Assembly (NCBI RefSeq): GCF_030704535.1
Contig: NC_081808.1
Span: 23,253,501-23,317,500, forward strand
Reading direction: 5' to 3'
From: Vitis vinifera
Taxonomy: Eukaryota > Streptophyta > Magnoliopsida > Vitales > Vitaceae
Length of the DNA stretch: 64,000 nt
The notes below the pieces were generated by a model. The model saw only the letters and a list, made by a program, of their open reading frames with translations, was not told the origin of the DNA and made no database searches. The translations under genes and the position numbers were made by a program. Shown here one piece after another: positions 8,416-64,000 of this stretch. Each line of letters opens with the position of its first letter. Positions within the stretch are counted from its first letter, which is position 1.

Positions 8416-8720
8416 TGTGGGAAATCTGGGAGATATTTTCTGCTATTCAAATATTGTTGTTTTGTTTAAATAATAAATCTGATTATATATCAACTTCTAG
8501 GAGTTAGTTGTTATTTTTAAAAATTATTATTTAGAGTTTAAATTTAAATTTTTTTATCCTGTTTTTTAGGAGTCAGGTTTTTAGCTGACTTTGAATAAGT
8601 CTCCTAGTTTCTAGGCAGAAAGATTGTTAATTATTCTCTAGCTATCTATTTAATTAGTTGTAATCTCCAACCTTGTAATTAATTTGAATTTCAAAAAGTT
8701 GAGAAACTAGTTCGGTTTCA
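8416..8720 (+). repeat. Left (5') LTR of the plus-strand Copia element
   Basis: 305 bp, TGTGGGAAATC to CGGTTTCA. It aligns over its full length to 12753-13067, including GATATTTTCTGCTATTCAAA and AATAAGTCTCCTAGTTT. Differences are spread along the length, so the insertion is not recent. Confidence 0.85.
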
Positions 8721-8814
8721 TGGAATCAGAGCTTGGATACTTGATCTGAGTAATGTCTAATGATGGCTAAGACAACCATGACTGGTGTGATAAGAGGCAA
8801 CAACTTTGACCGGT

Positions 8815-9723
8815 TCTGAAAACATTGTTCATAACCTTTGTTGATGATTACTCCAAAGCTGGTTAGGTTTATTTATTAAAAGAGAAATTTGAAGCTGCCC
8901 AAATCCTTAAAAGAATTTACTTTATGATTCAAAACCAATTTCAAACCTCTGTGAATATATTTCAAACTGATAATGACAGAATATTTTAATACTATCCTTA
9001 GAGATTTTTTCCTTGAAAAAGGGATTGTCCGTCAAAGCACTTGTGTCAATACTCCACAACAAAATGGGATTGTTGAATGGAAAGATAGGCATCTATTAAA
9101 AGTAGCTCAATCATTGATGTTCGGGAGTAAAGAAAATTTTTTGGGTTGATGCCATTCTTACAGCTTCTCAACTTATAAATGGAATGTCTTCCAAAGTTTT
9201 AAATTTCAAAATCCCAATCAATGTTTTTCTTGAGTCTTTTCCTGAATCACGACTTTGCACAAATCTTCGGATGCACGGCGTTTGTACATGCTCATGAACC
9301 CCACAAAAGTAAATTAGAACCTTGTGCTCATACATGTATTTTTCTTGGGTATGCTCCTTCACAACGTGGTTACAAGTGTTATGATCCTGTTTCTCATAAA
9401 TTTTATGTGCCCATGGATGTAACCTTTTTTGAAAACCATCCATATTTCACCCAATCTTCGCTTCAGGGAAAGAATGAAAATGAGGATCAAACAACACCAC
9501 CATTTCCGGTTCTGCCCATTTTAGTTATGCTAGAAACACCAAAAAATAACCCACAAATGCCTAGTTTTGTTCAGCCACCAATTCTACCCATTTCAGTTCT
9601 ACCAGAAACTCTAGAAAAAAACCCACAAATGCCCAATTTTGTTCAGCCACTAGTTCTGTCCACTCAACCACTAGTTCTGCCCATTAGTATACAACTACAA
9701 CCACCATCCTTGCCAATAGTTCC
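8815..9723 (+). pseudogene. Copia integrase relic (first part)
   Basis: Frames from about 8840 show the integrase core: a VDDYSKA-type strand (catalytic Asp region), a QTDND block with the second Asp, and TPQQNGIVEW with the catalytic Glu region near 9050-9080. The longest frame, 9221-9723, carries the FGCTAFVH...FLGYAPSQRGYKCYDP block typical of the C-terminal part of Copia integrases, then a Pro-rich linker. Stops near 8985-9010 and 9147 and at least one frameshift break it. The gag-protease part that should precede it is absent, so the element has a large internal deletion. Confidence 0.8.
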
Positions 9724-9930
9724 TGTTGGCGTGAGCTGTCCGTGATTAAAAATATTGTAGCCAGATTTGTTAGAATCCCTTCTGTTAAGGGTCAACTATT
9801 ATAATAGGCGTAATTTGTGTATAGCCTAATTTAGCTTCTATTTTTTCTCTTTGTATTGATATATAACCATCCTCGTCTCTGTACAGAAACATATGGAAAA
9901 ATATATGAGCAATTTCTGATAATTCCAACA
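9724..9930 (+). mobile_element. Probable solo LTR inserted in the Copia element
   Basis: A 207-bp block with matching inverted ends TGTTGG and CCAACA interrupts the Copia reading frame; Copia-like coding sequence resumes after it (CATCCCATCTCAGTGGGTGA...). It contains AT-rich, LTR-like sequence and no coding. The flanking 5-mers GTTCC and CATCC agree at only three positions, so the target duplication has decayed or the ends are slightly misplaced. Confidence 0.45.
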
Positions 9931-10038
9931 CATCCCATCTCAGTGGGTGATAACGAATCACCAACGGAAGCAACACAAACCTCAACAATCAACCGAGCTT
10001 CGTGCCTGCTCTAGGAGGCATGAAGAAGTAGATGCCCT

Positions 10039-10341
10039 TGTTGGGACGTCATTTGTTTGTTTGGCCCTGGTCAGCCGTACCACCGGGACTAGCCGGAATG
10101 GGCCGGACCAGGGTGGCCTCCCCAGGATTCGAACCCAAGTCCAAGACTTAAGGACGTTGAGGTTGCCCTCCTGGTACCATCTGTGCTGCTGCAGCACAGA
10201 TGCTACCAGGAGGGCAACCTCAACGTCCTTAAGTCTTGGACTTGGGTTCGAATCCTGGGGAGGCCACCCTGGTCCGGCCCATTCCGGCTAGTCCCGGTGG
10301 TACGGCTGACCAGGGCCAAACAAACAAATGACGTCCCAACA
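10039..10341. repeat. Palindrome P1, centre 10190
   Basis: The arms of 151 bp mirror each other around base 10190 without gaps; I saw one mismatch (TGGTACCA against TGCTACCA). The right arm carries CAGCACAGATGC near the centre and B-box GGTTCGAATCC at 10245-10255. Outer ends are TGTTGGGACGTCATTTGTTT and its complement. Confidence 0.9.
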
Positions 10342-10722
10342 TAAACGTCGGCCTTTTTTGCTCTGGTGCCAACCATACCACTGAACTGTGCCAGTCAGGG
10401 GCATCACAGCCGGAATGGGCCAGCAGCGCAGAGGCTTATGGGGCCATTTGTTTATTTGGCCCTTGGGGTGACGTCCCCAGGATTCGAACTCAAGACCAAG
10501 CCTTAAGGTGCTTGAGTGTGCCCTCCTGGTACCATCTGCGCTACTAGCGCAGATGGTACCAGGAGGGCACACTCAAGCACCTTAAGGCTTGGTCTTGAGT
10601 TCGAATCCTGGGGACGTCACCCCAAGGGCCAAATAAACAAATGGCCCCTCATAAGACTCTGCGCTGTCCGGCCCACCCTGGTGGCGAACCCCGGGCACCA
10701 GAGCAAAAAAGGCCGACGTTTT
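10342..10722. repeat. Palindrome P2, centre 10544
   Basis: The inner arms 10440-10543 and 10545-10648 mirror each other essentially perfectly around base 10544. Beyond them the symmetry resumes after a variable stretch: AACGTCGGCCTTTTTTGCTC near 10345 and GAGCAAAAAAGGCCGACGTT ending near 10720. The right arm carries A-box TAGCGCAGATGG at 10545-10556 and B-box AGTTCGAATCC at 10598-10608. Confidence 0.88.
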
Positions 10723-11001
10723 TGTTGGGACGTCATTTGTTTGTTTGGCCCTGGTGCCTAGGCTAGAGCCTGCGCGGCGCCCAGAGTGGCCTCCCCAGGA
10801 TTCGAACTTGGGTCCATGCCTTAAGGACCTTTAGTGTGCCCTCCTGGTACCATCTGCGCTAGTAGCCCAGATGGTACCAGGAGGGCACACTAAAGGTCCT
10901 TAAGGCATGGACCCAAGTTCGAATCCTGGGGAGGCCACTCTGGGGGCCGCGCAGGCTCTAGCCTAGGCACCAGGGCCAAACAAACAAATGACGTCCCAAC
11001 A
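10723..11001. repeat. Palindrome P3, centre 10862
   Basis: Arms of 139 bp mirror each other around base 10862 with a couple of mismatches (for example GGCGCCC against GGGGGCC). The right arm has TAGCCCAGATGG at 10863-10874 and AGTTCGAATCC at 10916-10926. Its outer 30 bp equal those of P1, while parts of the arm body differ from P1 in a way that is matched in both P3 arms. Confidence 0.9.
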
Positions 11002-11039
11002 GCCCTCACACTTACGACACTTTAAACAACGGAACTGTT

Positions 11040-12700
11040 GGTTGTCTCAAACCTAGGTAAATTTGATTTTAAAAAAACTAGTGATTTGAATCTTCCGATT
11101 GCACTTCGAAAAGGAGTTAGAAGTTGTGCTTCCCATCCTATTTTCGATTTTGTTTCACTTCACCGATTGTCACCTTCATTTCATGTTTTTACTTCTCACC
11201 TTTCCTATGATAGTGTTCTAAAGAATATCCAAGAGGTTCTGACTATCCTAGAATGGAAGAATGCTGTCTTTGAAGAAACATGAGCTTTGAATCAAAATGG
11301 AACATGGGAACTAGAAGATTTGCTGAGTGAAAAGAGGTCTGTGGGGGTGTAGATAGGTGTTTACAATCAAGTATAAGTCTGATGGTTCGATTGATCTATA
11401 TAAGGCGCGTCTCATGGCAAAAGGTTTCACTCCAACCTATGGCATAGACTCCTTGGAGACCTTTGCACTTGTCACAAAGTTGAACACTATCTTCATTTTT
11501 TTCTCATTACTAGCCAATTTGGATTTGTCATTATAGTAGCTAGACATTAAAAATAAATTCTTAAATGGGGATTTAGAGGAAGAAGTGTATATGGTTCTAC
11601 CTCTGGTTTCAAAGGAAAAAACGCAAACCTAGTGTGCAGGTTTAAGAAGGCTCTCTATAGACTGCTTAGTCTTAATTAGTCTCCTAGAGTGTGATTTGAT
11701 AGACTTTCCAAAGTTCTAAAACGATGTACCTTCTTGCAAAGCCAATCGAATCACATAGTGTTCTACAAAGACTTAGATCAAAAGATGGAAATGTAACAAT
11801 TCTGATAGTGTGTGTAGATGACATGATTCTAATAGGTGATGATGTAGCTGAAATGGAGGCACTAAAGAAGATTCTTGCAAAAGAAAGTCAAATATCTCTG
11901 ATTCTTGAGGTATTTTTTGGGAATGAAGTTGCTAGAAATAACAATGGCATTTTGATGTCACAAAAGAAGTACGCGCTTGACCTATTGAAGGAGACCAGAA
12001 TGCTTGGATGTAAACCTTGTGAAACCCCAATGGACTCAAATCAGAAGCTAGGAGTGATAGACAAAGGAGATCCAATCGATAAGGGAAGCTTCCAACGATT
12101 GGTAGGGAAGTTAATATATCGTTCACACACATGACTTAATATTGCTTTTTCCGTTTGTATTGTTAGTCAATATATGCATTCACCTCATGAAGCTCACTTA
12201 GAGGTTGCATATAGAATTCTAAAGTACTTAAAAGGAACTCCTAGAAATGGAATTTACTTTGGGAAGAATGATGAAAGAAGAATCGAAGCATATATAGATA
12301 TGAACTTGACTAGTTTAGTAGAAGATAGGCAATCCACATCTAGATATTGTTCATTTGTTTGGGGAAATTTTTAGTCACTTGGAAGAATAAAAAGAAAAAT
12401 GTGGTGGCAAGGAGTAGCATAGAGGCAAAATTCAGAACAGTAGCTCATGGAATGTGCGAAATCTTGTGGATCAAAAGGGTTTTGAAAGAATTGAAGATCG
12501 CTATGATGTACTGTGATAACAAGACCATGGTTAGCATCTTGCATAATCTAGTTCACCATGATAGAACAAAGCATGTCGAGGTTGATGGTCACTTCATTAA
12601 AGAGAAGATTGAGCAAGGAGAGATTTGCATGACTTATGTCCAACCAAAAGCCAAGTAGCTAATGTCTTGACCAAAGGATTGTCGAAAGTCAACTTTAAGA
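11040..12700 (+). pseudogene. Copia reverse transcriptase and RNase H relic
   Basis: After the palindromic insertion, the Copia polyprotein resumes: a PIALRKGVRSC block (11092-11130) leading into the reverse transcriptase, a VDDMILIGDD block holding the catalytic Asp pair near 11815-11845, ETPMD near 12020, then RNase H with LKYLKGTPRNGIYF (about 12214-12258), an RSSIEAKF block near 12410-12435 and the CDNKTMVSI block near 12510-12540. Stops (for example 11281, 11350, 12133, 12373) and frameshifts break it repeatedly. It ends just before the purine tract and right LTR. Confidence 0.85.
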
Positions 12701-12752
12701 CAAACATAGACAAGTTGGGCATGACAAACATTTATGCACCCTTGAGAGGGAG

Positions 12753-13067
12753 TGTAGGAAATCTAGAAGATATTTTCTGCTATTCAAATATTGTTATTTC
12801 ATTTAAATAATAAATAGAATTCTATTAGAGTCTAGGAGTTAGTTGTTGTTTTTTAAGATTATTGTTTAGAATTTAATTTTTTATTTTTTATTTTTTTTTA
12901 TAATCATTTTTAGGAGTTAGGTTGTTAGCTGAGTTTGAATAAGTCTCCTAGTTTTTAGGCAGCAGAATTGTTAGCTATTCTCTAGCAATCTATTTAATTA
13001 GTTGTAAACTCCAGCCTTGTAAAATTAATTTGAATTTCAAAAAGTTTGAGAAAAAAGTTCGGTTTCA
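12753..13067 (+). repeat. Right (3') LTR of the plus-strand Copia element
   Basis: 315 bp, TGTAGGAAATC to CGGTTTCA, preceded by GAGAGGGAG. It has small indels relative to the left LTR, mainly in a T-rich run near 12870-12900. Confidence 0.85.
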
Positions 13068-23028: not shown

Positions 23029-23108
23029 GAGTCATTTGGCTTCAGTTATAGACAACCCAACTATCTAAAGCTCTTGCAATACACAAGTACCCAGTGTTGA
23101 GATATTGC

Positions 23109-24336
23109 ATGGCCGGGACGTTCAGTAACCTTTTGGAAGGGCTGAAACCAGTCATGGTAATGGTGATAATTCAGATCGCATTTGGTGGAATAAATATTTT
23201 CTATAAATTGGCTACGAATGATGGCATGAGCGTGAAGATTATGGTCGCCTATCGAATGATGTTTGCTGCCGCTTCAATGGTTCCCCTTGCTCTAATATTA
23301 GAATGGTAATTAACTTTTATTATATATATATTTTAATGTTTTTCTTTATTTTAACATTTTTCATCAGGGTTCATAAATTTAAATTTACTTTAAAGTTTTT
23401 ATTTCCCTCTTCCTTTAGAATGGTTATAACTTACTGGATGTCTTCAAAAGGACCAAGAGCAACATATTTATAAATTAAAAGTAAGACCTAAGAGGTTAGA
23501 ATTAAAAATTCTCAGGATCATCACAATTTTGGGTGATGGATATGTATTCTATTTCTGATATATTTTTTATTTATTTTTCTTTAACAGGAAGAGTAGACCG
23601 AAATTGACAAGAAGGATTTTCATTCTAAGTTTCTTCTTAGGCATATTTGGGTAAGAAATAATAATTTACATGCATATGCTCAATTTGCCTATATATATAT
23701 TATGAAACTTCTTCTAAATCTAAAGAATGATTCTAGATATCAAATAAAATTTAAATAATGATAACATATAGAGTGGCTATCTCTTTTACTATGATCTCTT
23801 TCTTATGGCAATCAAGCATAGAATAATAATTTCCATACCAGAGTATTCTTTAATTTATTATATTTTACTGCTTGGGATGTATAAAAACATTACTTACAAT
23901 TTATTATTTTACTTTTCAGAGGATCATTAAGCCACAATTTATATGCTGAGAGTTTGGCTTTAACATCTGCAACATTTGTAGCAGCAATGAGTAATCTTAT
24001 TCCTGCTATGACATTTGTTATGGCTATTATCTTAAGGTATTTTCTTTTCTTTTTTTCTTTGTTCTAACAAATATTCTTTCATGTTTTTATTTAAAATTTT
24101 AAAAATTAGCATAATTAATTTGAACTAATTTTTACATATTACTTAAAAGAAGATTAGTGTGCTTTTTATAAGCAAAATCAATAATGACTTAATAAGTACA
24201 TACATTCATAGGCAACAACCTCAACCACTTGTAGTTTGATGGGAAGGCAAATGTTTTGACCAAGAGCCTAAGTCATCTATGTATGAAATATACTTTTTCC
24301 TTGTCTTTACTTCCCTTTCCATCTCTTCCCTTTCTT

Positions 24337-35290: not shown

Positions 35291-36114
35291 ATCATTTGAC
35301 CCTGTTTAGTTGAACTTTGCATAATTGGTTTTATATATATATATATATAGAAATTAAACTAACCTTGAGAAATAGAAAGATTAATAGAGATAAAAGAGGG
35401 GACATTATACTTACAAAATTCGGTAAAAATGTCTTACTTGCATCCATGAGCAATGATGATCAATCTACTAATCTTCAAATAAATAAAAAATTACAAATTC
35501 AAACCAGGAGGCTATTAGTTGAAAGAGTTTTCTCCACACTAAATTGCCTAAAACCACTCTATCTCTTTAGTGAAAGGATTTAGACTTATTTATCGAGCCA
35601 CAAGCTTTGGAAAACCAATTCATGATGCATATGGGAGAAAGATTCCAAAGACATTACAACGCTAATTTGAGAAAAAAAAATCCACACTTAGATCAGTCAT
35701 CAAACTTCTATAATATTAATATTGTCTTTTAAAATTCTAATTTTATATATATAATTTCCTTTTTTAGTTAACCCAAAATAAAAAGATTTGACCTTAAGAA
35801 TGTTTAAAAAAAAAAAAAAAAACCAGTCAAACTTTAATTCCTTTTTTTTTATGTAATTTACTCACACACGACTAGAGACATGCGTATGTTATCATTTATC
35901 ATCCTATTGCCCTTAAATCCATTATGATGAGGTTCGCAATCTACTCAAATCATGCTGGATCCTGATAATCGCGTAAGATCAGATGTTCGAGAAAAAGCAA
36001 TAATGGGTTCTTTTAAATAGAGAAGGTGGATGGATTCCCCTTTTTTTTTTTTCCTCAATGCTTACAAATCAGAGTCATTCTGAAAAGGCTGTAATATCCA
36101 GACATCACTTCTAA
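35291..36114. other. Upstream region of the long WAT1 pseudogene
   Basis: No gene. From about 35880 to 36114 the sequence is clearly related to the region before gene C (49270-49489): ATCTACTCAAATCATGCTGG, AAGATCxGA, GGTGGATGGAT...CCC with a T run, and TCATTCTGAAAAGGCTG. The TATA motif of gene C (ATTATAAATAG) corresponds to CTTACAAATC here, so the pseudogene may have lost its TATA box. Confidence 0.5.
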
Positions 36115-36892
36115 ATGGATGGGAAGTTGAGCCACGTTGTTGAAGGTCTAAAGCCAGCCATAGTAATGGTGATGCTTCAGGCAATGATTTCAGGAGTTAA
36201 TGCTTTTTATAAACTAGCTAAGAATGATGGCATGAACACCGTGATTATGGTGGCTTACAGATATATCTTTGCTGTAGCTGTTGTGGTTCCTCATGCTCTA
36301 ATCCTTGAACGGTATATCTTATTATTTGCTTCTGTTTGAGGGCTAAAGCTGGTGTTTCTTTCGAACATTCGATGTCTTCAGTGTAGATACAATTAGATAT
36401 CTGTAGTATAAGGTTGTAACTTAAGTATTTTCCTTTTTTGTAACTGAAGTCTTGAAGCTATCTCTGTTCTAAAATGTTAGAGAACAAAAAATTGATATTT
36501 CTCTGTTAAAGTGCATAGCAAAGATATATACATTTTTTTTCTGGTCATGCATCTTCCTTTTTGTATTTTAGAGAAAATGTTCCCATTTGATTTATTGTAT
36601 CAAAGTAGCCATTAGTTTTTTCTTGGCCAAAAATACTACCAAATGGGGTTTGAATTTTTATTATGAGAGATTGCTACATGAAATTATGTGATATAAATTA
36701 AATTCAAATTTTCTTTGAAAATTTCTGGGCTTTTAATTTCTTCTGTGTGACCAGAAAAATACCCTTCACCAATAGCATTGTAATATTGTCTTTTCTCTTC
36801 CTTTTTTGAACAGGAATAGTAGACCAAGGATGACATGGATGCTCTTGTTCCAGGTGATTGGGTAGGAATTGATTAACATTTTAGCTATATTT

Positions 36893-44987: not shown

Positions 44988-45545
44988 CTAAATATGCAAG
45001 TGCCTTAAACTAGGTCTCTTTCCTATCCATAGTTCAAAAGGGGTCTTTGAAACTACCTTACTAGAAACCTTGCTTAATAAATACATGGTGGTTTTCAAAG
45101 CATACATCCACAAAGATAAGGATAAAGAAGAATAGCTCAACATGCTCCAAACCATGTCTATTAAAGTACAATTAAGCCTTTCTACAATACCATTATGTTG
45201 TAGTGCACCTGGCATTGTGTATTGAGCACATATGCCACACTTTTCAAGGAATTTAGCAAATGGACCAAGACATTGTCGAGTTTCATCATGTTTTCCATAA
45301 TATTCACTACCTTTATTAGACTTGATAATTTTCACTTTTTTGTCTAGTTGTCTTTCAACATCATTAATAAACACCTCTAAGGTGTCTACTGATTGAGATT
45401 TTTCATGCAAAAAATAAACATAGCCAAAATATGGAACATGAAAAAGCCCATATATATTGGTGTGTATAAGTCCAAGGAGTTGTATGCTTCTTGTGGTTTC
45501 TTTCTTAATTATGTGTTTTGTGTGTTTTCCTTTAATATAATCCAC
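44988..45545 (-). pseudogene. Copia integrase relic (open for 185 codons)
   Basis: This is the longest intact piece of the element: an integrase core with KGKHTKH, LIHTNIYG, SNKGSEYYGKHDE and QHNGIVERLN blocks. In active elements the second and third blocks carry Asp (as in HTDI and SDRG); here both are Asn, so two of the three catalytic acids are lost, while the Glu of GIVERLN remains. The zinc-binding N-terminus and the C-terminal domain lie in other frames. Confidence 0.85.
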
Positions 45546-46169
45546 ACATATGTCAAATTAGTAAAATTCAAATCAAGAAGGGTTTCATTCTTTACCAATC
45601 TTGGTATTCTTTTCTTGGATATGTGACCCAAGCATTTATGCCACAAGTAAGCTAAACTTTCATCAACTTAACCATAATTAGTACCAACATTATCAAGCAA
45701 AGTTAACAAAGTCTCACCAAAAAGTTTATCAAGCTTTTATTTATACAAATTATCACATAAAAAGCCAGAACCAATGAAATGATTATGTTTAAACAAATTG
45801 AAACATCCATTCCCAAATTTAAAAGAGTGTCCAGCTATATCAAGGTTAGATAAAGAAACTAAATTTCTAAAAATAGAAGGAACATAAAGTGTTTGAAAAA
45901 AAAATCTAAATAATGTCTAATATCTAAAATTAAATAATAAGTTCCAATGGCCTCAACTAGAGCTTTAACTCGATTCCCTATGAAGACAAATTTTGAATTT
46001 TGATTTATGGTTTAGGTCATAAGGAATTCTTGCATCATATTGGAAACATGAGTGATACAATCATAATCAATCCACCAAGTACTATAAGGAACTTTATCAA
46101 ATTTGATTCAAAACATATGAAAGCACTAGGCTTACCTTTCTTTTCGAACCATGCCTTACATTTTAGGCA

Positions 46170-49437: not shown

Positions 49438-49489
49438 GCAAGAGTTATTCTGAAGAGGCTGCCACAGCTATACTAGAGAGCACTTGCAA

Positions 49490-52400
49490 ATGGGTGGGAA
49501 GTTGAGCCACGTTGTTGAAAGTCTAATGCCAGCCACAGTGATGGTCTTGGTTCAGGCAACGATCTCAGGAATTAATATTTTCTACAAACTGGCTAAGAAT
49601 GATGGCATGAACACCATGATTATGGTGGCTTACAGATATATCTTTGCTGCAGCTGCTATGGCTCCTCTTGCTTTGATCCTTGAATGGTATATCTTATTAT
49701 TTGTTTCTGTTTGATGGGTAATGCGGGTTTTCCCTTTCTTTCCTTGTAACATGCCATGTCTTCACTAAAGCGATAATTGGATATCTGTAGGTTAACTTTT
49801 TATATTCTGTTTGGTTGCAGAGAAAATGTTGAAAGAAAAAAGGGAAAAATACTTCCAAATGGTGATTGGATTTTTATTACATGAGAGATTGCTACATGAA
49901 ATTATGTGACAAAAATTCATATTTTATTTTAAAATTTCTGGGCATTTGATTGTTTGATTGGTTCAGTGTGACCAGAAAAATACCCTTATACACATAGAGA
50001 GAGGTATACATGTATGTATGTATGTATGTATGTATATATATATATATTTATAGTAGATATTTTTTATTTAATTGGAACAGGAATAGTAGACCAAGAATGA
50101 CATGGATGGTCTTCTTCCAGGGGTTTTTCTGTGGCCTGTTTGGGTAAGAACTGATGAACCATTAATTTTCCCTTTTTGTTTTTGTTTGGTGAGGACTTTA
50201 TAGAGATTGATTTTCCTAAAAACTTAGGTGGTGTTTGTTTTTTTACTTGATTCTAAATAGAACCTTAATACTTAATAGTGTTACATATTATGTTGTTTGT
50301 TTTTATAGTATTTTATTTTTATTAAATATTAAAAAATAAAGAAAAACCAATATGTTATTTTTTATATTCAGAAAAAACTACATATTTTGGTTTTTTTTAT
50401 TTAGTGAAAAGTTTATAATAAGTTATGAAAAAGTAGAAAAACAAACAACCTAAATTCTGAAAACAAATTACTTTTAACAAAAAACCAAAAAAAACAAACA
50501 TCACCTTGAACTAAGTTTGGTCCCAAAAAGTGCTAAGAAAAGAAAAAAAAATGTTTTAGAAAATAGTTTTCATATTTGGTTTTATTATGAGAAATAAAAA
50601 GGAAAATCAAATATAATTAAAATTAATTAAAAATATATATATTTTTAAATTATTGAATATTTATATATTATAAGGAAATAAGTAGAATGAAGTTGAAAAA
50701 GGATCTAAAAATAATTTATTAACTTAAACCTATTTTTTATCTTTTTTTTATTTTTTCTTTCTTTTTATTTTTCTTTTCCTCACATTTTCCCTCAAAGTTT
50801 CCAATAATCTAACAAAACCTTAAAGAACTTACCAAGAAATAATATTATTCTTTTTCTTTCATATGTCTAATTATGACATGTATTATGAGTAAATAATATC
50901 TTTCACTCCTTATGACATGTACAAAGTATTTAAGCTGGTTTATTATATAGGAAAGAATATGTATATGGTGGGATAAATATATAAATGCTAAGATATTGTT
51001 TCCAACAAATATAATATTCTTAGATATTATATTAAATAAACATAATATTTTAAGATAGTGTATTCAATAAAATATATAATATCATACTTATATATAGTTT
51101 ATTTAAAAATAAATAAATAAATAAAGAACATATTGTTTTTCATTGTTGGATAATTTGTTTAAAATAAAAATTATGTTACATCCCAATATTTGTGATTAAA
51201 AAATATCAAATATGTTTAGTATTATTTAAAAGTTAACTCTATAATTTATAATTTACTAAGTAATTTTTTTATTTCTTTATGAATAATATTTATGATTAAA
51301 ATATTTAAAACTTATAAATTTAAAAAATGTTACATTATGTTGTTAAATATTTAAAACAATTTATATATATTAAATATCATGTGAAATAATACCTATATTA
51401 ATATTATTTTAATTTATACATATCTTTTTAGTTTTTTTAATTATAAATTTATTTTTTAATCAAAAATTTTTATTTTAAGAAACGAGTAATATAAAAAATT
51501 GACAAAACAATATGAAAAAAAAAATGAATAAGAAAAGGAAATTTATAATTTATAGGATATGGTATCCAGCATCTTACTACTTACCCTATTCGACGTTAAT
51601 TTGTTGAAGATGAGATATGATTAGTTACCCTATTCGACGTTAATTTGTTGAAGATGAGATATGATTAGTGATGTCAATTTATCATATATTATTATCAACC
51701 AAACATGAAATGGTGGGACATATTATTATTTCACATTTTATTTTATCACATATTATATCTAACCAACCAACCATGTCTTGAATATGTTTCACTATAATTT
51801 CTTATTTAAACTTTGATTTAGAGGATCATTAGGGCAAAATCTCTTTGCGGAGAGCTTGGCTTTAACATCTGCAACATATGTATCAGCAATAGCTAATCTT
51901 GTTCCAGCTATGACATTTATCCTTGCCATTATCATGAGGTAATATTTTTATTTATCAGTTAGTTTTTCAAAAATGAGGTAGAATAAGAGATTATGAGCTA
52001 TTGTACGAAACATAAGTCCGAACATGAAAAAAAAAAAAAGTGAAGTTTTACTAGTTAACTTTGTCGGATAAGATGATATAAATCATTATGGCATGTTTAT
52101 TAATTGGATATAATATGATAAAGATAAGAGATGTGATAATATATGTATCTTATCCTATGTTTGATTGATAATAGATAGATAGAATAATTTATCACATCAT
52201 ATCACTTATTATATCTTATGTTCCACCAAACATGTCTAAAATAATATAAATTGTAAGATATATTATATAAACAAAAAAAATACTATCATGTTCTTTTTCA
52301 AATCTTCTCTCATATGATAATTCTAAATTGAGATATGATATATATCACATGAATCATGAATTTATTCTCTCACCTATTTTCTTTATTTTTTATATTACTC

Positions 52401-58190: not shown

Positions 58191-58578
58191 TATCATAATC
58201 GGATCAATTATGAATGGCTTTTGAGATGTGGACCATCCACATAAAGTCTGTTTGACGTTCCGCCTTTTCATCTCACGTTGAAAAGGAGCTTAATATTAAA
58301 ATAAAAAATCCCACAAACACAAATCCTCTACGTCTGTAAGACCTTCACAACCTACCACAAAAAATTTAATGAGGGCAGGTAACAAAGGAAAGGAAACACT
58401 GGAGGCCCAAAACATAGAAGTACGCCTTTGATGAAGCTGGACAGGAGTCCTCAATCCTTAATAGGGCTCCCTACTAAAGGAGAAACGCATCCCGTAAGCT
58501 CCTGCCCTTCTCTCTGGACAGATTATCATAGACCCTTTTTTTTTCTTTGGGATTCTAATATCAACTTGATTCTTGGTT
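58191..58578 (+). repeat. Upstream segment of gene D, duplicated before gene E
   Basis: About 390 bp from TATCATAATC to the start codon match 63398-63792 closely, with small indels (a 14-bp GACAGGAGT-containing stretch and poly-A/T lengths). Both copies contain CTACGTCTGTAAGACC and GGAGAAACGCATCCCG. The duplication continues into exon 1 of both genes. Confidence 0.9.
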
Positions 58579-58806
58579 ATGGGTGGGAAGCTCTGCAACA
58601 TTGTTGATGGGACGAAACCAGTCATAGTAATGGTGGCTGTGCAACTAGTCTTTGGAGGAGTTAATATTTTATACAAGTTGGCTATCAACGATGGAATGAA
58701 CACCAGGGTTCTTGTAGCCTATAGATTCATCTTTGCCACAGCTTTTATATCTCCTCTTGCTTTCATCTTGGAAAGGTGATAATCTTCTTCTTCTTCTTCT
58801 TCTTCT

Positions 58807-58838
<32 letters not shown>

Positions 58839-62485: not shown

Positions 62486-63001
62486 TCATCTATCACACTT
62501 TGGCATTCCTAACTGAGCTTTATTTTTCTTCTCCTCGGTTGTTTTGGGTTGTTCCACCTCTGCTGCTGCTGCTGCTGCTGCTTCAATGTCTATCTTTTTT
62601 TCACTGGATGAGACAGGGGCTTCTTCCACTGGGGTTTTTGACTTCTCAACTTCTGGGAGTTTCTGTTCAGTAAATGAGACCGGGGGTTCTTCCACTGGGG
62701 TTTTGGATTTTTCAACTTCTGGGAGTTTCTGTTCGGTAGATGTGACCGGGGGTTCTTCCACTGGGATTTTGGATTTTTCTACTTCTGGGAGTGTCTGTTC
62801 AGTAGATGAGACCAGGGCTTCCTCAACAGCAGTTTCAGATTTTTCAACTTCTGGCAGTTTCTTTTCACATTCCTCAGTGGCCTTTTCAATAAGTGACTCT
62901 TGTTCTTGTTTTATTACCTCAGATGGTGCCTTATCTTCTTCTTTATTTGAATCCTCCCCCTCTTCATTATGTGCACAAAGCAGTTCAAAATTCAAACACA
63001 A
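62486..63001 (-). CDS. Acidic Glu/Lys/Pro-rich protein with 22-residue repeats, function unknown
   Basis: A minus-strand frame of 171 codons. After an uncertain N-terminus it holds about four repeats of 22 residues of the form KLPEVEKSKTPVEEPPVSST, then an Ala run (seven or so) and a basic end KKNKAQLGMPKCDR. It has no signal peptide or membrane segment; the composition is that of a disordered cytosolic protein. The first codons are hydrophobic and unlike the rest, so the real start may lie in an upstream exon with an acceptor near 62965; I could not find a convincing first exon. Similar Glu/Pro/Val repeat proteins exist in plants, but I recognise no named family. The opposite strand is also open (Ser/Gly/Thr-rich), a by-product of the repeats. 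Confidence 0.5.
   Translation of the reverse strand: MCLNFELLCAHNEEGEDSNKEEDKAPSEVIKQEQESLIEKATEECEKKLPEVEKSETAVEEALVSSTEQTLPEVEKSKIPVEEPPVTSTEQKLPEVEKSKTPVEEPPVSFTEQKLPEVEKSKTPVEEAPVSSSEKKIDIEAAAAAAAEVEQPKTTEEKKNKAQLGMPKCDR
62600..62875. repeat. 66-bp coding minisatellite
   Basis: Units of 66 bp (plus-strand landmark GAGAC/GTGAC at 62610, 62676, 62742 and 62808) are repeated about four times in phase with the minus-strand frame. The central copies are nearly identical, the outer ones more diverged. Confidence 0.9.
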
Positions 63002-63397
63002 GAACAGAACAGAATGCCATTGAGAGATTGAAAAAAGACATCAATCATTCTACAATTCTTCATCATTAAATCAGTTGTACCAGATTGAACAATTCTCATG
63101 ATCAGACTAATGAAATCTTACTCAATTATGTTCATAAAGCAATATTTGACTAACCTCGATTCTACAGATACGGCCAAATGCCATAATCTGAGCCCAAGAA
63201 TTGGAAGCTCCGTTTTCATTATAACCACACAATGCTCAACAAAGACAAAAGGTAAAAATATGAAGTTCAACAACCATCAGCAACCAATGTGAGAATCTCA
63301 CTGAGAGAACCCATTGATGAAACCAGTTAAAACATTATGACCAGATGGTTCCAACAAGCAGTAAGAGAATCTACTGAGGAAATTTTGGTCCCTTGTG
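63002..63397. other. Region between the acidic-repeat frame and the duplicated upstream segment
   Basis: No gene is firmly supported. It may contain 5' exon(s) of the minus-strand acidic-repeat gene: a short open stretch near 63160-63220 on the minus strand ends at a GTTAGT donor-like site, but its phase does not fit the acceptors that I can see. Confidence 0.3.
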
Positions 63398-63792
63398 TAT
63401 CATAATGGGATCAATTATGAATGGCTTTTGAGACGTGGACCATCCACATAAAATCTGTTTGACGTTCCACCTTTTCATCTCACGTTGAAAAGGAGCTTAA
63501 TATTAAAAAAAAAAATAAAAAAAATAGAATTCCTACAAATACAAATCCTCTACGTCTGTAAGACCGTCACAACCTACCACAAAAAATTTAATGAAGGCAG
63601 GTAACAAAGGAAAGGAAATACTGGAGGCCCAAAACATGGAAGCACGCCTGTGATGAAGGCTCAATCCTCGATAGGGCTCCCTACAAAGGAGAAACGCATC
63701 CCGGAAGCTCCTGCCCTTCTCTCTGGATAGATTATTATAGACCCCCTTTTTTTTTTTTCATTGAGATTCTAATATCCACTTGATTCTTGGTT
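63398..63792 (+). repeat. Upstream segment of gene E, duplicate of 58191-58578
   Basis: The sequence matches the region before gene D over about 390 bp with few substitutions, including CCATCCACATAAAATCTGTT and GGCAGGTAACAAAGGAAAGG. The distance between the two copies, about 5.2 kb, is the length of the duplicated unit. Confidence 0.9.
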
Positions 63793-64000
63793 ATGGGTGG
63801 GAAGCTCTGCAACATTGTTGATGGGGCGAAACCAGCCATAGTAATGGTGGTTGCGCAACTAGGCTTTGGAGGAGTTAATATTTTTTACAAGCTGGCTGTC
63901 AACGATGGCATGAACGTCAGGGTTCTTATAGCCTATAGATTCATCTTTGCCACAGCTTTTATATGTCCTCTTGCTTTCATCTTGGAAAGGAGGTAATCTT
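63793..64000 (+). CDS. WAT1-related / nodulin MtN21-like EamA transporter, gene E (exon 1 only, cut by window end)
   Basis: Exon 1 runs 63793-63992, followed by the donor GTAATC. It encodes MGGKLCNIVDGAKPAIVMVV and the first two predicted helices, ending LERR. It is almost identical to exon 1 of gene D but three bases longer at the splice junction (AAAGGAG then GTAATC). The rest of the gene lies beyond the window. Whether this copy has kept the intron-4 donor that D lost cannot be seen here. Confidence 0.85.

Follow-up and report, generated by a model that had tools for sequence, protein, structure and literature searches.

A largely palindromic, non-autonomous mobile element with LTR-like ends and tRNA-type promoter boxes in Vitis vinifera

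Background

Cassandra TRIMs are described as small, non-autonomous elements that carry Pol III-type promoter sequence in their terminal repeats, with 5S-type boxes A and C, and a standard primer-binding site (PBS; TGGTATCAGAGC) after the 5' LTR (PMC7215508). Small size, 5-bp duplications and terminal repeats are also features of plant TRIMs in general, for which 289 subfamilies with a mean length of 685 bp, tandem and inverted multimers and, in grape, five subfamilies with 8,890 copies were reported, the 5-bp duplications being quoted for four maize examples (PMC4717578). In the main text of that report, 'palindrom', 'PBS' and 'polymerase III' have no occurrence, and no palindromic terminal repeat is described there. 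In a 2008 survey of the cut-and-paste transposons of grapevine, duplications measure 8 bp for hAT, 3 bp for CACTA and PIF and 9 bp for Mutator; its main text nowhere contains '5 bp', 'foldback' or 'palindrom' (PMC2528002).

Foldback and MITE-like DNA transposons combine terminal inverted symmetry with strong hairpins and have no coding capacity. The tRNA-derived SINEs carry an A/B-box pair, and SINEs end in a 3' A-rich or simple-repeat tail; retrozymes are distinguished by a hammerhead ribozyme in the LTR.

The element reported here lies in a 64,000-nucleotide stretch of grapevine DNA (the window). It shares with Cassandra the small size, the lack of autonomy and the promoter-type sequence in the terminal repeats, whereas its boxes are of the tRNA type, no PBS is present at its terminal palindromes (P1 and P3 below) and the terminal repeats are themselves palindromes. 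Small size, terminal repeats and, in the window copy, a 5-bp duplication are common to it and to plant TRIMs, and the five grape subfamilies of PMC4717578, compared by description alone, might include this family. With foldback and MITE-like transposons it shares inverted symmetry, hairpins and the lack of coding capacity, but it has a 5-bp duplication with TG...CA ends, and three separate palindromes instead of one inverted pair. From tRNA-derived SINEs, which it resembles in the A/B-box pair, it differs in the absence of a 3' tail, in its symmetrical TG/CA ends and in the 5-bp duplication. No description of such an element was met among the titles and abstract openings of the literature matches listed, and six sequence words from it had no occurrence in the literature searched.

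Structure of the element

The element is 963 bp long (window positions 10039-11001) and has TG...CA ends (TGTTGGGACGTC and GACGTCCCAACA), its termini carrying TGTTGGGACGTCATTTGT ends; it is flanked by a perfect 5-bp target-site duplication, GCCCT. Ends, duplication and coordinates were all exact as given in the initial annotation. Its parts, listed without strand, are the following:

10034-10038: left target-site duplication GCCCT, from the sequence
10039-10341: P1, terminal palindrome, arms of 151 nt, centre 10190, 1 mismatch
10342-10370: X, inner repeat adjoining P1, with T6 at 10354-10359
10440-10648: P2, internal palindrome, arms of 104 nt, centre 10544, 0 mismatches
10694-10722: X', inverted copy of X adjoining P3, with A6 at 10705-10710 and T5 at 10719-10723
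10723-11001: P3, terminal palindrome, arms of 139 nt, centre 10862, 2 mismatches
11002-11006: right target-site duplication GCCCT, from the sequence

A single nucleotide separates the arms of each palindrome, and there are 3 mismatches over 394 arm positions. When all palindromes of the 64 kb were ranked (at most 2 mismatches; spacers of 0, 1 or 3), the longest had arms of 151, 139 and 107 nt and the next, in an AT microsatellite, had arms of 27 nt; the three palindromes are far above chance level. As RNA, the whole element has a predicted fold of -979.6 kcal/mol versus -372.0 +/- 8.3 for 20 shuffles, and P1 alone, as DNA, one of -212.9 versus -50.2 (100 shuffles), with predicted hairpin loops of 3 nt.

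The element had been described as made entirely of palindromes, which holds for 791 of the 963 bp, and part of the remaining 172 bp is itself inverted. The outer 33 bp are identical at both ends of both P1 and P3 and form perfect 33-nt terminal inverted repeats. A further correction concerns P1 and P3 as a whole: as the direct repeat 10038-10341/10722-11001 they share no more than 77% identity in an alignment of 305 positions, and their middle segments are unrelated. The inverted pair X/X' extends into the palindrome ends, giving 62-nt arms (10309-10370/10694-10755) of 98% identity. In the window sequence, the inner ends of P1 and P3 carry no separate duplication. The element has no A-rich or simple-repeat tail, both ends being the same TG/CA word, and no long ORF of its own able to encode a nicking or replication protein. 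An assembly artefact is an unlikely source of the inverted arms, since three palindromes of different sequence lie within a single clean target duplication and other records contain the composite as well.

The two arms of a palindrome are the same at 391 of 394 positions, against 13-15 differences when the 80-nt cores are compared between palindromes; we infer that each palindrome was generated from a single arm, or that copying keeps its arms equal. The three arm mismatches, of which P1 has one and P3 two, are all C/G transversions, that is, C-C/G-G mismatches of the hairpin, in a sample of just these three cases; differences between palindromes are mixed, with C/G transversions making up 2-4 of the 13-15.

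Host element and age of the insertion

The element sits inside an old Copia retrotransposon, which has a PBS-like word, TGGAATCAGAGC, just 3' of its 5' LTR:

8416-13067, plus strand: host Ty1/copia element, with LTRs at 8416-8720 and 12753-13067 that are 83% identical
9203-9742 and 11703-12131, plus strand: regions containing, respectively, an SH3-like domain and an RVT_2 fragment of the host (Pfam), with the element between them

The host itself was rejected as the source of the element termini, its LTR beginning differently (boundary set by eye). A protein search with the SH3 region gave 71 matches, the best at 95%, while the three that carry an organism name, from Dorcoceras, Pistacia and Mucuna, reached at most 55% identity; as a test for an empty site, none of the 71 proteins matching the host aligns across the insertion point. 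Substitution rates of 1.3e-8 and 5e-9 are in use for dating, and they give 0.3-0.8 My for the palindrome arms and 7-19 My for the host LTRs. As a measure of age, arm identity may reflect conversion instead of youth.

tRNA-type promoter boxes

Each arm had been said to hold the A-box-like motif TAGCGCAGATGG and the B-box GGTTCGAATCC. This was overstated, the A-box being exact in three of the six arms and the B-box in two, with one base off in the other four. A scan with consensus words, in which each box could deviate by one base and the two boxes had to lie 25-65 nt apart, found A+B pairs in four of the six arms, namely the two of P2 and the two of P3, and none elsewhere in the window; the starts of the paired boxes are 53 nt apart.

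10545 (A-box start) and 10598 (B-box start), plus strand: box pair of P2
10543 (A-box start) and 10490 (B-box start), minus strand: box pair of P2
10863 (A-box start) and 10916 (B-box start), plus strand: box pair of P3
10861 (A-box start) and 10808 (B-box start), minus strand: box pair of P3
10125-10135, minus strand: B-box word GGTTCGAATCC of P1
10245-10255, plus strand: B-box word GGTTCGAATCC of P1

The A-box of P1 departs further from the consensus than those of P2 and P3. B-box words within one mismatch number six against 0.27 expected by shuffling, and since the arms are related to each other, these six represent about one ancestral event. When the three 80-nt cores are compared, variation affects 2 of 22 positions inside the boxes versus 18 of 58 outside them (one-sided p=0.036), a weak sign of constraint.

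No tRNA was found in the element by ARAGORN (bacterial settings) or Rfam, and the Rfam scans returned neither a 5S nor a ribozyme family. The 31 rows of a relaxed Rfam scan, mostly microRNA families, were all below gathering scores and were read as an effect of perfect hairpins, not as homology. Runs of T occur just inside P1 (T6, 10354-10359) and P3 (T5, 10719-10723; A6, 10705-10710, a T6 of the minus strand), so that inward transcripts would be short, and the T6 is a possible Pol III stop for the right arm of P1. From the motifs we infer that Pol III might transcribe the element from these boxes.

Related copies in other records

An 83-aa reading of P1 gave nine protein matches (E<=10) among 12 candidates, and an alignment of these nine led to at least 35 proteins at E<=1, the first nine included, in a second search that scored the best 7,992 candidates by word sharing. 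The related 'proteins' are spurious or chimeric ORFs, useful as translated copies alone, and the copies outside the window are known here from such translations alone. All six relatives with an organism name (P0001, P0002, P0008, P0084, P0086 and P0097) are from Vitis vinifera. The family thus contaminates gene sets, grapevine 'proteins' with names such as predicted heat-shock protein and glutathione S-transferase being among its members.

In two of the relatives, P0084 and P0097, family sequence has become part of predicted grapevine genes (for a heat-shock protein and a zeta-class GST), and in P0093/P0105 a family member is fused into an ORF with a PF01596 domain.

The terminus motif was found in 30 of the 35 relatives and is missing in P0001, P0002, P0004, P0086 and P0089. 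In the main frame, 19 distinct outer flanks meet the same terminus, pairs with a common flank (P0009/P0101, P0081/P0082 and P0093/P0105) being merged in this count, and P0103 meets it in another frame. None of the 19 flanks ends in M, W, K, Q or E, residues whose codons cannot end in T, the base required before GTTGGG. Other copies with the same ends exist, therefore, and the lack of any such copy, which the initial annotation had named as grounds for abandoning its proposal, is excluded. The step from X' into the terminal palindrome is read by 11 of the 35 proteins (P0008, P0081, P0083, P0088, P0091, P0092, P0097, P0099, P0103, P0104 and P0106) and that from the end of P1 into X by P0089 and P0098, so the composite occurs repeatedly as a unit. 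The proposed non-autonomous mobile element is borne out as a family that has a fixed TG terminus, composite copies, a 5-bp duplication in the window, tRNA-type boxes and one or more palindromes that appear to be solo.

The X'-P3 junctions, read by hand, are of the GACGTTTATG type in three of the 11 proteins (P0091, P0103 and P0106) and of the GACGTTTTTG type in the eight others of that list; both types are present in the window, one at P3 and the other, in inverted orientation, at P1.

Collections in which plant DNA is not expected gave the following. IMG/VR had no match in pattern scans and, in a protein-based scan, 38 pattern matches of which none was confirmed; GTDB contigs had none in the first scan and 49 in a second, again with none confirmed. 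Five records of a plasmid collection, with matches of 27-52 bases at E=3, were taken as chance.

The apparent solo form is P0003, which matches the left arm of P1 (10040-10186, 96%) and then the right arm (10237-10341, 97%), and runs into other sequence on both sides, both ends included. By hand back-translation its flanks read CCNCC on both sides, so that a 5-bp duplication fits at 4 of 4 determined bases, the middle one being undetermined, on the evidence of one hand back-translated protein that may be spliced. P0003 is without 50 bases round the hairpin tip, which could be a deletion or a predicted intron. By the same hand reading P0082, in which both ends are legible, shows no fit to a 5-bp duplication; its left flank is common to P0081, and it may be spliced or rearranged. 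In P0004 and P0089 the right end is shown and the outer left end is not readable.

The two ends of individual relatives were compared by degenerate back-translation over about bases 21-105 from each end, which was possible for four of them; these scores vary with the number of bases determined by the reading frame. The terminal palindromes of P0097 agree at 49 of 50 determined bases over 85 and are mutual best matches. Those of P0103 agree at 20 of 21 over 64, and the best match of its P1 is its own P3, but the P3 scores higher with five other relatives. In P0081 the agreement is 14 of 14 over 71, a value that P0005 and P0007 also reach, and its P3 scores 25.2 with the window P1 versus 24.7 with its own P1; in P0092 it is 7 of 7 over 18 bases only. 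Matched ends are thus clear in P0097, P0081 and P0103 being compatible with them and P0092 too short. Such ends fit LTR-style copying, but a DNA transposon whose inverted ends match would give the same picture.

In the window, P1 and P3 can be aligned over only 27 of these bases, 26 of them agreeing. P1 matches P0003 at 44 of 44 bases over 85 and P3 matches P0090 at 43 of 43 over 84, so the window element is a hybrid of two subfamilies. It could have arisen by recombination, by template switching or by assembly as a composite.

Mode of integration

The ends and the duplication fit LTR-type integration, and together with the solo and composite forms they favour an LTR-type integrase acting in trans. 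The element is accordingly read, tentatively and with confidence somewhat short of calling it probable, as a non-autonomous LTR/TRIM-like element whose integrase is supplied by an LTR retrotransposon. P1 and P3 would then be terminal units, with P2 held in the internal domain, and a lone terminal palindrome would correspond to a solo LTR. A linear DNA that has the ends of the element, probably a cDNA, would be joined to the target by the integrase supplied in trans, and the near-perfect arms would be kept or remade by arm-to-arm copying, either hairpin-templated synthesis or conversion. Short Pol III transcripts might be driven by the A/B boxes and stop at the T-runs next to P1 and P3, and the window copy would be a recombinant with terminal palindromes from two subfamilies.

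Several observations do not agree with the standard form of such a cycle. The iMet-type PBS TGGTATCAGAGC was not found in the 60 nt beyond P1 and P3, where the best words match at 6 and 7 of 12 positions versus 11 of 12 in the host Copia used as a control; no TGG occurs until 22 nt past P1 and, on the minus strand, past P3, and non-iMet primers were judged by this alone. A minus-strand word resembling the tRNA-iMet PBS (10 of 12), 18 nt from P1, was rejected, as it is on the wrong side and is equalled in 62 of 1000 mononucleotide shuffles. No polypurine tract abuts P3, the preceding 30 nt containing AAAAAAGG but ending in CCGACGTTTT. The missing PBS and abutting purine tract argue against a standard TRIM life cycle, and the element is not filed as a TRIM because no PBS adjoins P1 or P3 while that of the host Copia was detected. 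At 77% identity, moreover, the P1 and P3 of the window are not the near-identical pair expected from standard LTR copying.

Priming by a tRNA-like molecule encoded in the element itself, with a Pol III transcript of the right arm of P2 to the T5 at 10719-10723 priming after P1, seems improbable. Positions 10700-10722, which would form the 3' end of that RNA, are complementary at 22 of 23 bases to 10342-10364, directly after P1, where a PBS would be expected; since X and X' are inverted repeats, this complementarity leaves the primer as only a possibility. If such priming did occur, the internal palindrome would replace the host tRNA and the palindromic 'LTRs' would be a new architecture.

A serious rival, in our judgement possible though doubtful, is a foldback or MITE-like DNA transposon, in which P1 and P3 would be complete miniature elements and the 963-bp composite would have been moved by a cut-and-paste transposase making 5-bp duplications. 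DNA transposons of the Ginger type have TG...CA ends and an integrase-like transposase, which counts for this explanation, as do the long terminal inverted symmetry, the absence of a PBS and of an abutting purine tract, the apparent solo unit with its own ends (P0003) and the origin of P1 and P3 from different subfamilies, as in a composite of two insertions. What speaks against it is that P1 and P3 each lack a duplication of their own at the inner end, and that the duplication here is 5 bp versus the 3, 8 and 9 bp given for grapevine superfamilies in PMC2528002.

Viruses with palindromic ends replicate by fold-back self-priming (rolling hairpin), and a DNA intermediate of a similar kind, in which the terminal palindromes fold back and self-prime copying before the product is integrated, would explain the close agreement of the arms against the 13-15 core differences, as expected if one arm templates the other, and would suit the predicted 3-nt loops. 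We regard it as quite unlikely: the element has no long ORF of its own that could specify a protein for nicking or replication, P2 has no mismatch although it is not terminal, and gene conversion or recent origin explains the arm identity equally well. Already disfavoured, and very improbable, is a reading as inverted SINE dimers, in which two tRNA-derived SINEs would have been joined head to head and then retroposed by LINE machinery; it draws on the box pairs 53 nt apart in four of six arms and, weakly, on box conservation, but the shared TG/CA word at both ends, the 5-bp duplication, the lack of an A-rich or simple-repeat tail and the absence of a tRNA by Rfam or ARAGORN all speak against it.

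If the element is indeed moved by an LTR-type integrase, the substrates of such integrases can be mostly hairpin DNA with no obvious primer site, and tRNA-type boxes can be built into LTR-like termini, comparable to the 5S promoter in Cassandra. Where long, nearly perfect hairpins lie within genes or close to them, they might also give rise to small RNAs and make the region structurally unstable.

Other repeats of the window

Recurring repeats at 2481-2713, 23066-23340, 36072-36346, 49447-49721, 58536-58810 and 63750-64000 suggest a tandemly duplicated gene family, whose translated pieces presumably resemble transporters of the nodulin MtN21/WAT1 type; the single piece compared with Pfam had no hit. 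On the minus strand, a 189-aa ORF (44988-45557), by eye a fragment of a Copia integrase, likewise had no family in Pfam. A 66-bp tandem repeat (62529-62858) lies within a 184-aa minus-strand ORF (62486-63040) that has repeated KLPEVEKSKTPVEEPPVS-like units.
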